NCBI RefSeq assembly: GCF_000504285.1
Contig: NZ_KI632511.1
Coordinates: 5,562,154 to 5,626,153 of the forward strand
Direction of reading: 5' to 3'
DNA length: 64,000 bases
DNA from: Actinospica robiniae DSM 44927
Lineage (GTDB): Bacteria; Actinomycetota; Actinomycetes; Streptomycetales; Catenulisporaceae
The notes under the pieces were generated by a model. That model was not told the origin of the DNA and searched no databases. It saw only the letters and a program-made list of their open reading frames with translations. The position numbers and the translations under genes were made by a program. Within the stretch, counting starts at the first letter, position 1; each line of letters begins with the position of its first letter. Below, piece by piece: positions 10,293 through 16,569 of this stretch.

Positions 10293-10354
10293 GTTGAACG
10301 CGTTCAAAAACTCCGCTACGCTCGTCCCGGCGCGAGTTTTTGAACGCGTTCAAC
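10293..10354. promoter_or_regulatory. double palindromic operator/promoter
   Basis: Two copies of the perfect 14-bp palindrome TTGAACGCGTTCAA (10294-10307 and 10340-10353) lie inside a larger perfect inverted repeat of 21-bp arms (10293-10313 and 10334-10354) with 20 bp between. TTGAAC at 10294-10299 and TACGCT at 10316-10321, 16 bp apart, look like -35 and -10 elements, so each palindrome would overlap or abut the promoter. The dyad type suits a TetR-family dimer, and a tetR-type gene lies 390 bp downstream. Which protein binds is inference. Confidence 0.75.
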
Positions 10355-10371
10355 TGCTCCGGGGAGGGACG

Positions 10372-10557
10372 ATGGATGCGGTGGCCGCAGTGGCGATCCC
10401 GTGCGTCGGCTGCGTCGATTCGGGAGGGGCCCGGCACGTCGTCGCCGACGGGAACGTCGTGGGCATGGCGCTGATCGCCGTACCGGGTCTGATCGCGGGC
10501 GCGATGGCCGGTTTCAGCCGCGCCGGCCGCCCGGGCCGGCTCGGATGGCCGGGATGA
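10372..10557 (+). CDS. small membrane protein (61 aa), unknown
   Basis: The ATG at 10372 follows GGGGAGGG with good spacing, and third codon positions are strongly G/C, which supports real coding. The protein has a CVGC motif near residues 11-14, then one hydrophobic stretch (VVGMALIAVPGLIAGAMAGF) and a short basic tail. I do not recognise a family. It is the first gene behind the double palindromic operator, so it is probably the main target of the regulator that reads that operator. It could be a stress-induced membrane peptide, but this is a guess. A terminator-like hairpin separates it from the tetR-type gene. Confidence 0.6.
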   Translation: MDAVAAVAIPCVGCVDSGGARHVVADGNVVGMALIAVPGLIAGAMAGFSRAGRPGRLGWPG

Positions 10558-10624
10558 CGAGACTGCAGAAGCACTGACCTGCCCGAGTGCGGTCTTGTCA
10601 GTGGACTTCTGTACGGTGCTCAGT

Positions 10625-10649
10625 GTGCCGGAAGCCTTGCTTCCGGCAC
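10625..10649 (+). terminator. hairpin after the small membrane gene
   Basis: GTGCCGGAAGC, loop CTT, GCTTCCGGCAC: a perfect 11-bp stem, 67 nt after the stop of the small gene. No T tract follows. Confidence 0.55.
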
Positions 10650-10677
10650 GGATGCACCGCGAGGGAGGACCCGCCCG

Positions 10678-10714
10678 GGACGGATCGGCGACGAGGAGGG
10701 GAGCCGATCCGTCC
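10678..10714 (+). promoter_or_regulatory. leader hairpin with a Shine-Dalgarno-like loop
   Basis: GGACGGATCGGC (10678-10689) pairs perfectly with GCCGATCCGTCC (10703-10714). The 13-nt loop holds GAGGAGGGGA, a strong ribosome-binding-site-like sequence with no start codon at a usable distance. It lies 28 nt upstream of the tetR-type start. Confidence 0.45.
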
Positions 10715-10742
10715 GGAGGCGGGCGTCAGCCCGTACGGTGGG

Positions 10743-11474
10743 ATGGTGCAAGAACCGATGGCCGCGACCAAGACCGCGAAAAGCGAGCAGACCCGCACGC
10801 TGATCCTGAACACGGCGATGCGCCTGTTCGAGGAACGCGGCTACGACCAGACCACCATGCGCGCCATCGCGCAGGAGGCGGGCGTCTCGGTCGGCAACGC
10901 CTACTACTACTTCTCTGGCAAGGAAGAGCTGGTCCAAGGCTTCTACGACCGCCTCGCCGCCGAGCACGCCGAGGTCGCGCTGGCCGCGATGCGGGGCGTG
11001 ACCGACCTGGCGGACCGGATCCGGCTGGTGCTCACCACCTGGCTGGACGTGGCAGAGCCCTACCACGCCTTCGCCAAGCACTTCTTCCGCAACGCGGCCG
11101 ACCCCTCCAGCCCGCTCAGCCCGTTCGCGGCCGAGTCCGCCGACGCCCGGGAAGCCGTGATCGACCTGCACCGGACCGTGCTGTCCGGCTCGAACCTGCG
11201 CTACGACGCGGAGATCGCGCGCATCATGCCGGAGCTGCTCTGGCTCCACCACCTCGCGCTGGTGCTCTACTGGGCGCACGACCGCACACCGCAGGCGGAG
11301 CGCACCCGCCGGCTGGCCGTGCGCACCTCGGGCACGGTGGCCAAGGCGGTGCGGCTGTGCAAGTACAAGGTCGTGCGGCCGCTGGTCCGGGAAGCCGACT
11401 CGATCCTGCGCGAGTTCCTGATCACCGACCCCGACCCCGAGCCCGCGGACCCGGACGCGGCGGCGAAGGACTGA
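10743..11474 (+). CDS. TetR family transcriptional regulator
   Basis: The N terminus (TRTLILNTAMRLFEERGYDQTTMRAIAQEAGVSVGNAYYYF, residues about 18-54) is a standard TetR helix-turn-helix. The rest is a helical ligand-binding domain, and the total of about 243 aa is slightly long, with an acidic tail. The start is uncertain: ATG 10743 follows GGTGGG very closely, ATG 10758 has no clear ribosome-binding site. The nearest palindromic operator is the TTGAACGCGTTCAA pair at 10294-10353, and the gene in between is small, so an autoregulated operon is plausible. The ligand cannot be predicted. Confidence 0.85.
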   Translation: MVQEPMAATKTAKSEQTRTLILNTAMRLFEERGYDQTTMRAIAQEAGVSVGNAYYYFSGKEELVQGFYDRLAAEHAEVALAAMRGVTDLADRIRLVLTTWLDVAEPYHAFAKHFFRNAADPSSPLSPFAAESADAREAVIDLHRTVLSGSNLRYDAEIARIMPELLWLHHLALVLYWAHDRTPQAERTRRLAVRTSGTVAKAVRLCKYKVVRPLVREADSILREFLITDPDPEPADPDAAAKD

Positions 11475-11484
11475 GCCCCGCGGA

Positions 11485-12834
11485 TCAGCCGCCGGAGCCG
11501 GCGGCCGGCGTCTCGTCGGGCTCGCGGCCCGGCGTGGGCAGGTTGAACTTCTTGATGGCGAAGGTGAACAGCGCGTAGTAGACCGCCCCGAAGCCGAGGC
11601 CGATCGGGATCAGCAGCAGCGGCCGGGTGGCGATGTCGAAGTTGAATATGTAGTCGAACAACCCGGCCGAGAACGAGAAGCCGTCGTGGATCCCGAGCGC
11701 GTTGCACAGCGCCAGCGAGACCCCGGTGAGCAGGGCGTGGATGCCGAAGAGCACCGGCGCGACGAACAGGAAGGCGAACTCGATCGGCTCGGTCACCCCG
11801 GTCAGGAACGAGCACAGCGCCGCCGAGAGCATGATGCCGCCGACCAGCTTGCGCTTCTCCGGGTGGGCGCAGCGCACCATCGCGAAGGCGGCGGCGGGCA
11901 GCGCGAACATCATGATCGGGAAGAAGCCGGTCATGTAGGTGCCCGCGCTCGGGTCGCCGTGGATGAAGCAGCCGAAGTCGCCGTAGTACACGGTGCCGTT
12001 GAGCTGGCAGGTCGGGCCCACCGGGGAGTACCAGACCACGTTGTTGACCACGTGGTGCAGGCCGAACGGCAGCAGGGCCCGGTTGATCACGCCGAACAGC
12101 CCCGCGCCCATGGTGCCGTGCGCGCTCAGCCACTTGCCCGCGTCGAAGATCCAGGCCGCGGGGAACTTCCACAGCAGGCCGAACAGGACGCCGACGAAGA
12201 TCGAGGCGAACGCCGTCACGATCGGCACGAACCGGCGGCCGCCGAAGAACGCCAGATAGGCCGGCAGCTTGATCCGGTAGTAGCGCTGGAACAACAGCGC
12301 CGTCATGATGCCGATCGTGATGCCGCCGAAGGCATAGGTGGGATTGTTCACGATGGTGTCGTCGACGACGCCGCCCTTGTACCAGCGCGCGGCGAACGAG
12401 GCGTTGATCGGCATCGCGAACATCGTGGTGCTGACCTCGTTGAACACCAGGTAGCCCACCGCCGCGGCCAGGGCCGTGGTGCCGTCAGCGCGCCGGGCGA
12501 AGCCCACTGCCACGCCGATGGCGAACAGCAGCGGGATGAAGTTGAAGATCCCGTTGCCCGCGGCCGAGAACACCTGCTGCACGTAGATCAGCCAGTGCCA
12601 GCCGGTGACCGTGGCCAGGTAGAGCCCGTGCGTGCCCACCGCCGCGGCGCCGGTGGGACGTTCGCCGAGGATGTCCGGGGACCCGAGCCGGATCAGCAGT
12701 CCCGCCGCGGGCATGACGGCGATCGGGAGCATCAGCGAACGGCCGACGCGCTGCATCACCGCGAGGACGCGGTTCGCGGTGGGCGCGGCCGGCGGTAGTC
12801 CATCGGCGGTGCTCGCCGGCGCCGTCGCCGTCAT
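11485..12834 (-). CDS. PTS EIIC permease, N-acetylglucosamine type
   Basis: The 449-residue polytopic membrane protein has glucose/GlcNAc-class EIIC features: the N-terminal MQRVGRSLMLPIAVMPAAGLL, GLHHVVNN, TGVTEPIEFAFLFVAP, and the C-terminal HDGFSFSAGLFDYIFN signature seen in NagE-type permeases. It lacks fused B or A domains; EIIB and EIIA are encoded divergently at 13860-14590. Its start overlaps the 3' end of dasR by 4 nt (ATGA), which implies coupled translation. The substrate GlcNAc is inferred from the signature and from DasR. Confidence 0.88.
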   Translation of the reverse strand: MTATAPASTADGLPPAAPTANRVLAVMQRVGRSLMLPIAVMPAAGLLIRLGSPDILGERPTGAAAVGTHGLYLATVTGWHWLIYVQQVFSAAGNGIFNFIPLLFAIGVAVGFARRADGTTALAAAVGYLVFNEVSTTMFAMPINASFAARWYKGGVVDDTIVNNPTYAFGGITIGIMTALLFQRYYRIKLPAYLAFFGGRRFVPIVTAFASIFVGVLFGLLWKFPAAWIFDAGKWLSAHGTMGAGLFGVINRALLPFGLHHVVNNVVWYSPVGPTCQLNGTVYYGDFGCFIHGDPSAGTYMTGFFPIMMFALPAAAFAMVRCAHPEKRKLVGGIMLSAALCSFLTGVTEPIEFAFLFVAPVLFGIHALLTGVSLALCNALGIHDGFSFSAGLFDYIFNFDIATRPLLLIPIGLGFGAVYYALFTFAIKKFNLPTPGREPDETPAAGSGG

Positions 12835-13604
12835 CGATGAGCCTCCAGCGGGTTGGGTGCGGCACGGGGATTCGTGATCGGCTGTGCGGGCCTTTCCAAC
12901 GGCACCCAGAGCTGGTACCGATCGGCTCGGTAGGCGGAGCTCGCGTATTCGACGAGCAGGTCGTCACTGTAGCTGCGCCGGGTCATCTGCAACACCACGC
13001 CGATCAGCGGGATCTCCAGCAGCGCGGCGTCCTCCGTGTCGGGGTTGCTGGCCTCGATCACCTGCTCACCCCAGGTGAGAGTGAGGCCGTAGTGCTCGGC
13101 GAGCGTGTGGTAAAGGGATTTGGGCGAGCCGAGGGCGAGCAGGCCGGGCACCCGCTTCTCCGGCAGGTGGGTGCGCTCGACCGCCATCGGGATCGAGTCC
13201 GCGTAACGCAGCCGCACCAGGCGCACCACGCCGTCGCCGGGCTGGATCTCGAGCTGCCGGGCCAGCGAGGGCGAGGCCTCGATCCGCTCGAACGCGAGCG
13301 TGCGCGAGGCCGGCACCATGCCGCGCCGGGTCATGTCCTCGGTGTAGGAGGCCAGCCGCACCTGCAGGTCCATCTTCGGCTTGGCCACGAAGGTGCCGCG
13401 GCCGCGCACCCGGTAGAGGCGTCCGTCGGCCACCAGCTGGTTGACGGCCTGACGCACCGTCATCCGGGACAGGCTGTAGCGTTCCCCCAGCTCCCGTTCC
13501 GACGCGATGGGCGTGTCCGGCTCGAGCTCGGTGGCGATCAGCTCCAGCAGGATCTCCCGCAGCTGCTGGTGCTTGGGCACCGGGCTACGCGGATTGATCT
13601 CCAT
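12831..13604 (-). CDS. dasR: GntR/HutC-family repressor DasR
   Basis: The 257-aa protein has a GntR winged helix-turn-helix (residues about 8-75: SERELGERYSLSRMTVRQAVNQL and VRGRGTFVAKP) and a UTRA effector domain (about 95-245). Length and sequence match Streptomyces DasR, which binds dre sites and is released by glucosamine-6-phosphate. Candidate dre sites lie in its own upstream region (13722-13737) and before nagA (24319-24334). Being co-transcribed with the EIIC gene, it would be autoregulated together with sugar uptake. In Streptomyces dasR lies apart from the PTS genes; here they are adjacent. Confidence 0.88.
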   Translation of the reverse strand: MEINPRSPVPKHQQLREILLELIATELEPDTPIASERELGERYSLSRMTVRQAVNQLVADGRLYRVRGRGTFVAKPKMDLQVRLASYTEDMTRRGMVPASRTLAFERIEASPSLARQLEIQPGDGVVRLVRLRYADSIPMAVERTHLPEKRVPGLLALGSPKSLYHTLAEHYGLTLTWGEQVIEASNPDTEDAALLEIPLIGVVLQMTRRSYSDDLLVEYASSAYRADRYQLWVPLERPAQPITNPRAAPNPLEAHR

Positions 13605-13721
13605 CGATCCTCACTCGCCTGTCTCTCATCCCGCGCGCGACGTCTCGCTCCGGGAGAAGGGGCTGGCGTGTCCGGGAGTTCCCTGATTTGATGTGAAGTC
13701 GGTCACGCCATACTGTTATAG

Positions 13722-13737
13722 ACCGGACTAGACCACT
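13722..13737. promoter_or_regulatory. DasR-responsive element (dre)
   Basis: ACCGGACTAGACCACT matches the dre consensus ACTGGTCTAGACCACT at 14 of 16 positions. It lies in the divergent region between dasR and the EIIB gene, 118 bp from the dasR start and 122 bp from the EIIB start, so it could control both. Confidence 0.8.
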
Positions 13738-13749
13738 ATCGGTTTACTG

Positions 13750-13761
13750 TTGTCAAGACAA
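13750..13761. promoter_or_regulatory. second, weaker dre-like dyad
   Basis: TTGTCAAGACAA is an inverted repeat (TTGTC/GACAA) that matches the dre core TGGTCTAGACCA at 9 of 12 positions. It lies 12 bp after the better site and may add cooperative binding. Confidence 0.4.
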
Positions 13762-13859
13762 TACGGTCCGGTCGGTACCCAATCGCAACCACGGCCCGTG
13801 ACCGCACGGGCGCGCCGCGCCCGACGACGAGGTCGGCCGGCTGAGGACGGGAGCAGTGT

Positions 13860-14090
13860 ATGGACAAGGCGGAGGCGATCCTCGCCGGACTCGGCGGAGC
13901 CGACAACGTGGTCGAGATCGAACCCTGCATCACCCGGCTGCGCACGGTGGTGCGCGACGGCGGCAAGGTGGACGACAGGGCGCTCAAGGCGGCCGGCGCC
14001 CACGGCGTGATGAAGTCCGGCACCGTGGTCCAGGTGGTGGTGGGCCCGGAGGCGGACACGCTGTGCATGGACATCGAGGATCTGCTCTGA
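13860..14090 (+). CDS. PTS EIIB, glucose/GlcNAc class
   Basis: The 76-residue single-domain EIIB has the phosphorylatable cysteine at position 23 in EPCITRLR and the GVMKSGTVVQVVVG segment of the glucose class. It passes phosphate from EIIA to the sugar carried by EIIC. It is the first gene of a plus-strand operon EIIB-EIIA-HPr-EI, divergent from dasR-EIIC across a dre-bearing region. Standalone EIIB proteins of this size are usual in actinomycetes (NagF-like). Confidence 0.9.
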   Translation: MDKAEAILAGLGGADNVVEIEPCITRLRTVVRDGGKVDDRALKAAGAHGVMKSGTVVQVVVGPEADTLCMDIEDLL

Positions 14091-14590
14091 ACACACAACC
14101 CGAGCGGGCCGCCGCGCCCCCGGTACGTCCGGCTCTGCGCGTGCACGCGCCGATGGCCGGCCGGGCGATCGGCCTGGACCGGGTGCCGGACGCGGTCTTC
14201 GCCCAGGCCATGGTCGGCCCGGGGGCGGCGATCGATCCGGTGCGCGAGCCCGGCGAGGTGCTCAGCCCCATCTCCGGGATCCTGGTCAAGCTCAAACCGC
14301 ACGCCTTCGTGGTGACCGCCACCGACGGCCGCGGCGTCCTGGTACACCTGGGTATCGACACGGTGAACCTGGACGGCGGCGGATTCGTGCTGCTGGCCGA
14401 GGAGGGCGGGCCGGTGGACGCCGGCGCGCCGGTGGTGCGGTGGAACCCGGCCGCGATCGAGGCCTGCGGGCTCAGCCCGGTGTGCCCGGTGATCGCGCTG
14501 GACGCCGACCCGGCCTCGGCCGCCGCCATCGCGGCCTCCGTCGCGCTCGGGCCCGTGTCGGCGGACGACCGTCTGTTCACCTGGGCCTGA
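14087..14590 (+). CDS. crr: PTS EIIA, glucose class (Crr-like)
   Basis: This is a EIIA-Glc protein, with APMAGRAIGL, DAVFAQAMVGPGAAIDP, the accessory histidine in KPHAF and the active histidine in VLVHLGIDTV (residue 87 with the start used). The frame has no ATG or GTG close to the expected N terminus. The best candidate is CTG 14087, which overlaps the EIIB stop (CTGA) and has GAGGA seven bases before it. The alternative GTG 14141 has no ribosome-binding site and would cut the first strand close. The start is therefore uncertain; the gene itself is not. It receives phosphate from HPr. Confidence 0.88.
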   Translation: MNTQPERAAAPPVRPALRVHAPMAGRAIGLDRVPDAVFAQAMVGPGAAIDPVREPGEVLSPISGILVKLKPHAFVVTATDGRGVLVHLGIDTVNLDGGGFVLLAEEGGPVDAGAPVVRWNPAAIEACGLSPVCPVIALDADPASAAAIAASVALGPVSADDRLFTWA

Positions 14591-14635
14591 TACTGGTGGG
14601 CGACGTCGAGTAGCGCTCAGTCGTAAGGAGTGACC

Positions 14636-14902
14636 ATGTCCAAGCGCATCGTGACGGTGGCCTCACGGGTGGGGCTGCACGCCCGGCCCGCCGCCGTGTT
14701 CGTCAAGGCGGCCAGCGCGGCCGCCCTGCCGGTGACCATCGCCAAGGAGGGCCGGGAACCGGTCAGCGCGCGTTCCATCCTGGCCGTGCTCGGCCTGGAC
14801 GTGCGCGGTGGCGAGCAGGTCGAGCTGGAGGCCGAGGGCGACGCCGCCGAGGACGTCCTCGACGAGCTGGCCCAGCTTCTGACGGAGGATCTGGAGGGGT
14901 GA
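14636..14902 (+). CDS. ptsH: HPr phosphocarrier protein
   Basis: ATG 14636, with AAGGAG five bases upstream, puts the phosphorylated histidine of VGLHARPAAVFVKAA exactly at residue 15, as in all HPr proteins; the in-frame GTG two codons earlier is rejected for this reason. The 88-aa protein carries phosphate from enzyme I to EIIA. It follows the EIIA gene by 45 nt and overlaps ptsI by 4 nt (GTGA). Confidence 0.94.
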   Translation: MSKRIVTVASRVGLHARPAAVFVKAASAAALPVTIAKEGREPVSARSILAVLGLDVRGGEQVELEAEGDAAEDVLDELAQLLTEDLEG

Positions 14903-16569
14903 GCGGCGCGGTGGGCGCAGAGCGGACCGAGGAGCCGGCCGCGGGCCGTACGGCGCCGTCCACGGGCGCCGCGGGCCGGGTCGAGGGCGTGACGGCGCGC
15001 AGGCTGGCCGGGATCGGCATCGGCGCCGGTGCCGTGGTCGGCCCGGTGGCGCTGATGGCCGAGCCCGAGGCCCCGCCGCCCGCGGGCCTGGTCCCGGCCG
15101 GCGACCCGGCGCAGGAGTACGCCCGGGCCGAGGCCGCCCTGGCCGAGGTGGCCGCGGATCTGCTCCGCCGGGCCGAAGTGGCCGGCGGGGAGGCCGCGGA
15201 CGTGCTCGAGGCGCAGGCGATGATGGCCGAGGATCCGAGCCTGGCCGAGGCGGTGCGCGCGTTCACCGCCGCCGGCGCGGCCGCGGAGCGGGCCGTGTAC
15301 GAGGCCTTCGACGGTTTCCGCACCGCCCTGGCCGGCGCCGGGGACTACCTCGCCGCCCGGGTGGCCGACCTGGACGACCTCAGCGCCCGCGCGGTCGCCG
15401 CGGCCGGCGGCCGGCCGATGCCCGGGGTGCCGGTGCGCGACGAGCCGTTCGTGCTGGTCGCCCGGGACCTGGCCCCGGCCGACACCGCCGTGCTCGACCT
15501 GTCTCTGGTGCTGGCGCTGGTGACCGAGCAAGGCGGCCCGACCAGCCACACCGCGATCCTGGCCCGCTCCCGGGGCATCCCGGCCGTGGTCGGCGTGGAC
15601 GGCGCGCTGGGCCTGTTCGACGGCGAGCACGTGGTGGTCGACGCGGCCACGGGCGAGGTGATCCCGTCCCCGGCCGGGGAGTTGGTGGCGGCCGTCCGGC
15701 AGCGCGAGCGGGACCGGCGCGAGGCCGCGGCCGACCCGGAGGCGGCGAACGTGCCGGTCCTGGGCCCGGACGGCCGTGAAGTGCGGCTGCTGGCGAACGT
15801 CGGCGGCGGCGGGGACGTGCCGGCCGCCGTCGCGGCCGGGGCACAGGGCGTGGGCCTGTTCCGGACCGAGCTGCTGTACCTGGGCACGCTGCGTCCGCCG
15901 ACGTACGACGAGCAGGTCGAGGCGTACCGCGCGGTGCTCGGCGGATTCCCCGGCCGGACCGTGGCGGCCCGGACCCTGGACGTCGGCGCGGACAAGCAGC
16001 TGCCGTTCCTGCCCCTCGGCGAGGAGCCCAACCCGGCGCTCGGCGTGCGCGGGCTGCGCGCGTTCCGCGGGCCGTATGAACATCTGTTGGACACTCAGTT
16101 GGCCGCGCTCGCCGCGGCCGCGGCCGATTGCGCGGCCGACCTGTGGGTGATGGCGCCGATGATCACCACGGTCGAGGAGGCCGCCTGGTTCGCGGCCAAG
16201 GCCCACGCGGCCGGGATCGCCAAGGCCGGCGTGATGATCGAGGTGCCGGCCGCGGCGCTGACGGCCCGTGAGGTGCTCGCCGAGGTGGATTTCGCCTCGA
16301 TCGGTACGAACGACCTGACGCAGTACACGATGGCGGCCGACCGGATGCTCGGCTCCCTCGGCGCGTTCCAGGACGCCGGCCACCCGGCCGTGCTGCGCCT
16401 GGTGGCGATGGTCGCCGAGGCCGGCGCCGCGCTCGGCAAGCCGGTCGGCGTCTGCGGCGAGGCGGCCGCCGACCCGCGCGTGGCCGCCGAGCTGGTGCGG
16501 CTCGGGGTGACCTCGCTCTCGATGGCCCCCGCCGCGATCCCGGAACTGCGCGCCGCCCTGGCGAGATGA
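14899..16569 (+). CDS. ptsI: PTS enzyme I
   Basis: The 556-aa protein carries the phospho-histidine motif GGPTSHTAILARSRG (near residue 215), the PEP-binding segment GVGLFRTELLYL, IGTNDLTQYTMAADR and the catalytic-cysteine region GVCGEAA. It starts the phosphotransferase chain by autophosphorylation from phosphoenolpyruvate. The N terminus has about 30 extra Ala/Gly/Thr-rich residues before the conserved RLAGIGIGAGAVVGP. It is the last gene of the operon and is followed by a strong hairpin. Confidence 0.94.
   Translation: MSGAVGAERTEEPAAGRTAPSTGAAGRVEGVTARRLAGIGIGAGAVVGPVALMAEPEAPPPAGLVPAGDPAQEYARAEAALAEVAADLLRRAEVAGGEAADVLEAQAMMAEDPSLAEAVRAFTAAGAAAERAVYEAFDGFRTALAGAGDYLAARVADLDDLSARAVAAAGGRPMPGVPVRDEPFVLVARDLAPADTAVLDLSLVLALVTEQGGPTSHTAILARSRGIPAVVGVDGALGLFDGEHVVVDAATGEVIPSPAGELVAAVRQRERDRREAAADPEAANVPVLGPDGREVRLLANVGGGGDVPAAVAAGAQGVGLFRTELLYLGTLRPPTYDEQVEAYRAVLGGFPGRTVAARTLDVGADKQLPFLPLGEEPNPALGVRGLRAFRGPYEHLLDTQLAALAAAAADCAADLWVMAPMITTVEEAAWFAAKAHAAGIAKAGVMIEVPAAALTAREVLAEVDFASIGTNDLTQYTMAADRMLGSLGAFQDAGHPAVLRLVAMVAEAGAALGKPVGVCGEAAADPRVAAELVRLGVTSLSMAPAAIPELRAALAR

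Follow-up and report, generated by a model that had tools for sequence, protein, structure and literature searches.

A TetR-family ortholog of PDB entry 3c07 and its predicted twin operators in Actinospica robiniae and related actinomycetes

The locus in Actinospica robiniae

The window analysed here is a 64,000-nucleotide stretch of the genome of Actinospica robiniae DSM 44927. On its forward strand, a 61-codon frame (10372–10557) precedes a tetR gene (10743–11474), and upstream of both lie two copies of a 14-bp palindrome, TTGAACGCGTTCAA, which pattern matching over the 64 kb places exactly at 10294–10307 (operator 1) and 10340–10353 (operator 2). The copies sit, as the initial annotation of this DNA had reported, within a pair of perfect inverted arms of 21 nt each (10293–10313 and 10334–10354), which are 100% complementary to one another and are separated by 20 nt. 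The annotation had also judged the symmetry to be above chance, and the counts agree: with up to three mismatches allowed, TTGAACGCGTTCAA has four matches in the 64 kb, where 0.70 are expected. The 9.9-Mb genome holds three exact copies, two at this locus and the third at genome position 95123, between divergently oriented TIGR01777 and DUF1990 genes. As a control, the degenerate operator pattern was reversed, which gave no matches in the genomes of the family. The 61-codon frame, with its CVGC motif and one hydrophobic stretch, is present as first described, and so is the TetR frame.

Three Actinospica genomes were compared: the window genome, A. durhamensis (G019) and a third, G015. In all three the leader of tetR contains an 11-bp hairpin (10679–10713 in the window, forward strand) with an invariant 13-nt loop, GACGAGGAGGGGA. 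Three of the 11 pairs are changed on both sides among these genomes, and the hairpin occurs once in each of them and nowhere in the rest of the family. A comparison with Rfam gave a single match, Scr3920, which was taken as chance since it scored 23.5 bits where 88 are required. On the other side of tetR, inspection by eye of 11485–16569 showed adjoining genes for PTS EIIC, a DasR-like GntR protein (12831–13604), EIIB, EIIA, HPr and enzyme I; this PTS cluster has a dre-like site with three mismatches at 13722.

The TetR protein

The protein encoded at 10743–11474 has the N-terminal helix-turn-helix domain of the TetR family (TetR_N, PF00440; 69.3 bits against a cut-off of 24) and a TetR-type C-terminal domain (TetR_C_23, PF17931; 77.4 bits against a cut-off of 29.1). 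It matches PDB entry 3c07, which we take to be SCO4850 of Streptomyces coelicolor, with an E value of 3.6e-80. The match covers the full length and twin operators lie upstream of the gene, as in other orthologs of the 3c07 protein; the 135-residue membrane-protein gene and the DCC gene that separate operators and tetR in the operon of these orthologs are absent from this position here. A Streptomyces ortholog whose gene adjoins the same operators has nearly the same sequence as 3c07 over 251 residues, and the A. durhamensis TetR is 92% identical to that of the window. None of the curated equivalog models of NCBIfam reaches its cut-off with the window protein. Two named candidates were rejected on this basis, KstR (NF033703; 36.3 bits, with 280 needed) and the ScbR/gamma-butyrolactone receptor (NF041196; 52.7 bits, with 150 needed).

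Distribution of the operator pair and its targets

We surveyed 148 genomes of the order for the TetR ortholog (E ≤ 1e-40, one match per genome) and for a strict operator pair, defined as TTGAACRYGTTCAA-N25-36-TTGAACRYGTTCAA. The ortholog is found in 113 genomes, and 96 of these carry the strict pair, as opposed to none of the 35 genomes that lack the protein. Fisher's test on this cross-table, compiled by hand from two lists, gives p of about 2e-21, a value that overstates independence as the genomes are related. The pair has the consensus TTGAACryGTTCAA, with the two sites mostly 40–47 bp apart. Of the 17 TetR-bearing genomes in which the strict pair is missing, at least six (G015, G045, G051, G066, G082 and G097) have an approximate pair next to tetR, and in about ten no pair, near ones included, was seen in the stretches inspected. 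At the level of the family, exact single sites are confined to genomes with the TetR, at two to four per genome.

The pair is followed by an operon for a 135-residue membrane protein, a DCC-type thiol-disulfide protein (PF04134, although one Streptomyces copy scores below the cut-off) and TetR in Streptomyces, in Catenulispora-type genomes and in Nocardioides. Those Streptomyces that possess yndJ have a second pair ahead of yndJ (PF14158), DUF1990 (PF09348) and LMF1 (PF06762). Sites occur upstream of yndJ in all 33 yndJ genomes that encode TetR, two of them as single sites and some with one mismatch; no site precedes yndJ in G039, the sole yndJ genome without TetR. The initial annotation had suggested that the unit may be a small stress or envelope response circuit; the conserved targets belong to uncharacterized membrane and redox families. 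The AlphaFold model of the 135-residue membrane protein is poor (pLDDT 69, pTM 0.39). A Catenulispora-type genome (G013, contig 37, locus L120 2642–2699) has a second pair before a partial paralog of this membrane protein.

Because of this co-occurrence and the shared gene order, we assign the palindromes to the neighbouring TetR and consider the two copies in the window to be, with high probability, operators of the protein encoded at 10743–11474. Alternatively, a different regulator might bind the palindromes, with tetR a mere passenger in the operon, and two genomes (G071 and G074) with sites at yndJ and none seen near tetR would fit such an arrangement. It is difficult to square, however, with the absence of the strict pair from every TetR-less genome, with the bare yndJ in the only genome that has this gene and lacks TetR, and with the pair adjoining tetR in several families and even in Nocardioides, which belongs to a different order. 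We regard a different regulator as very improbable.

Promoter geometry

The initial annotation had placed a plausible −10 element between the palindromes, and a candidate is indeed found there: TACGCT, at 10317–10322 on the forward strand, follows TTGAAC (10294–10299, same strand) by 17 bp. The latter hexamer lies in the left half of operator 1. For comparison we collected 74 operator pairs, 45 adjacent to tetR and 29 adjacent to yndJ, with no more than one mismatch permitted per operator, a limit that biases the set towards a tight consensus. TANNNT stands exactly 17 bp past the TTGAAC of operator 1 in 65 of the 74 pairs (38 of the 45 at tetR, 27 of the 29 at yndJ), compared with 7 of 1727 instances at other offsets. 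Since the distance is so constant, the −35 box is predicted to be formed by the left half of operator 1, in an arrangement shared among the 74 homologous pairs. Transcription would start near 10329, and operator 2, the partner that is likewise kept in the relatives, would therefore span about +12 to +25. The window promoter escapes a simple promoter scan, as its hexamers agree with the consensus at too few positions.

The two operators are 46 bp apart in the window, 43–47 bp apart in most pairs of the tetR type and 40–44 bp apart in most of the yndJ type; a few pairs are spaced at 32–35 bp. The dimeric regulator envisaged in the initial annotation is retained in our reading, with TetR named by co-occurrence and synteny; the cooperative binding or looping proposed with it fares less well. 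Identical sites at 46 bp, with perfect outer symmetry, are what DNA looping or strictly phased cooperative binding might be expected to use. Across species, however, the centre spacing runs from 32 to 47 bp (mostly 40–47 bp), a range that exceeds half a helical turn with the outliers excluded, so that helical phase is not conserved and a steric block is favoured over phased looping. The TIGR01777/DUF1990 promoter has a single site, and steric block of a wrapped promoter would suffice without a loop. We therefore consider it unlikely that the sites work through looping or strict phasing. As far as sequence comparison goes, the constant feature across species is the enclosure of the predicted promoter by the sites, with variable site spacing.

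Frames and genes of the locus in Actinospica

The stretch downstream of the operators differs among the three Actinospica genomes: a 61-codon frame in the window, a 182-codon frame in A. durhamensis, and in G015 a gap of 187 bp followed directly by tetR. The DCC gene was not found in any of the three. Two of them, the window genome included, have the 135-residue membrane gene at another place, beside a D-Ala-D-Ala carboxypeptidase-like gene, and no operator is found upstream of it there.

At the distant site, 95123, the TIGR01777 gene scores 219 bits against a cut-off of 207, and the DUF1990 protein shares 55% identity with its counterpart in the yndJ operon of Streptomyces. The shared palindrome can be read in the direction of either gene, and in both directions TANNNT lies 17 bp away. 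This single palindrome (L001 1501–1514) is a predicted −35 box for both promoters. In A. durhamensis the TIGR01777 site is retained, and another site lies ahead of a gene with a weak DUF2071 match that falls below the cut-off.

The 61-residue protein had been presented as the defining target of the circuit, a role that the comparison does not bear out, as the other Actinospica genomes have a different frame in its place or none. Profile searches matched it to no family, and among 30 related genomes, A. durhamensis included, it has no convincing relative (one borderline match has an E value of 0.00999). Aligned with the 182-residue A. durhamensis frame it shows no significant similarity, the alignment being at chance level, and in G015 the 187 bp that separate the sites from tetR show no frame. 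The coding score is weak, at +13 bits over 61 codons. These observations would suit a frame that is no gene, with the twin operators serving mainly to autoregulate tetR, as in G015. On the other hand, the codon usage is better than that of the other frames of the same strand, which score −41 and −53 bits, and the ribosome-binding-like GGGGAGGGACG precedes the ATG in a start region, GGGAGGG-CGATG, that is similar in the A. durhamensis frame. We give the absence of a gene a little under an even chance; the 61-codon frame may be a young, lineage-specific gene or no gene at all. More tentatively, the repressor and its twin operators may have split off as a unit from the ancestral membrane and redox genes in Actinospica, the promoter possibly acquiring new lineage-specific small membrane proteins (61 residues here, 182 in A. 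durhamensis), while the distant DUF1990/TIGR01777 part was kept under control.

Proposed regulation and comparison with known systems

The regulation that we infer (binding, repression, induction and read-through into tetR) would make this an autoregulated TetR regulon, a kind already known. From operator 1, a TetR dimer would cover the −35 box; a second dimer, bound to operator 2, would cover the region just past the transcription start, so that with both operators occupied the promoter between them would be shut. A ligand would release TetR and switch the transcript on. In most relatives this transcript would comprise the 135-residue membrane protein, the DCC-type protein and tetR; in the window it would begin with the 61-codon frame and may read through into tetR. 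The same TetR is predicted to control a second locus as well, the divergent promoter of the TIGR01777 and DUF1990 genes at about position 95123 of the genome.

Repressors of the TetR/tetO type autoregulate via twin operators at their own promoter. The present system resembles them in having palindromic sites that overlap promoter elements beside the repressor gene, but its tetR is located downstream of the targets and shares their strand, and the left half-site coincides with the predicted −35 box. The window palindrome also formally fits the KstR consensus, which we take to be TnnAACnnGTTnnA; the window TetR, however, falls far below the cut-off of the KstR equivalog and the targets differ. 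The protein of PDB entry 3c07 is represented by a solved structure only, for which we found no sites or regulon described. SCO4850 appears in the literature searched solely as entries in the expression tables of two papers, with no account of sites or regulon, and the palindrome sequence itself is not mentioned there. The recognition sequence and targets of this TetR regulon were thus not found described in the literature searched.

Identification of the 135-residue membrane protein with SCO4848 and of the DCC protein with SCO4849 was rejected on the gene order of the Streptomyces loci L065 and L063. In these loci a 79-residue protein (WSWIIWITFVKNL) is encoded between DD-carboxypeptidase and phosphoesterase genes, and tetR faces the phosphoesterase gene. 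The 79-residue protein fits SCO4848, the phiBT1 attachment gene. This SCO4848-like membrane protein (L065 848–1087) is encoded close to tetR in Streptomyces. Given the gene order, reports on phiBT1, germination and sigma-E (PMC7460540, PMC3765725, PMC6767563) concern neighbours and not the TetR regulon. The names SCO4851 and SCO4852 for the DCC and membrane genes would follow from gene order only, and neither is mentioned in the literature searched.

The analysis puts forward a regulator by name, together with a precise recognition sequence of 14 bp and the geometry of the promoter, for one predicted regulon, which would span Streptomyces, Actinospica and Catenulispora-type genomes, and Nocardioides. 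As the structure of the repressor has already been solved, its ligand could be sought. The regulon would join families of unknown function (DUF1990, YndJ, LMF1, DCC, TIGR01777 and the 135-residue membrane protein), and any role that they share would become testable via one deletion.
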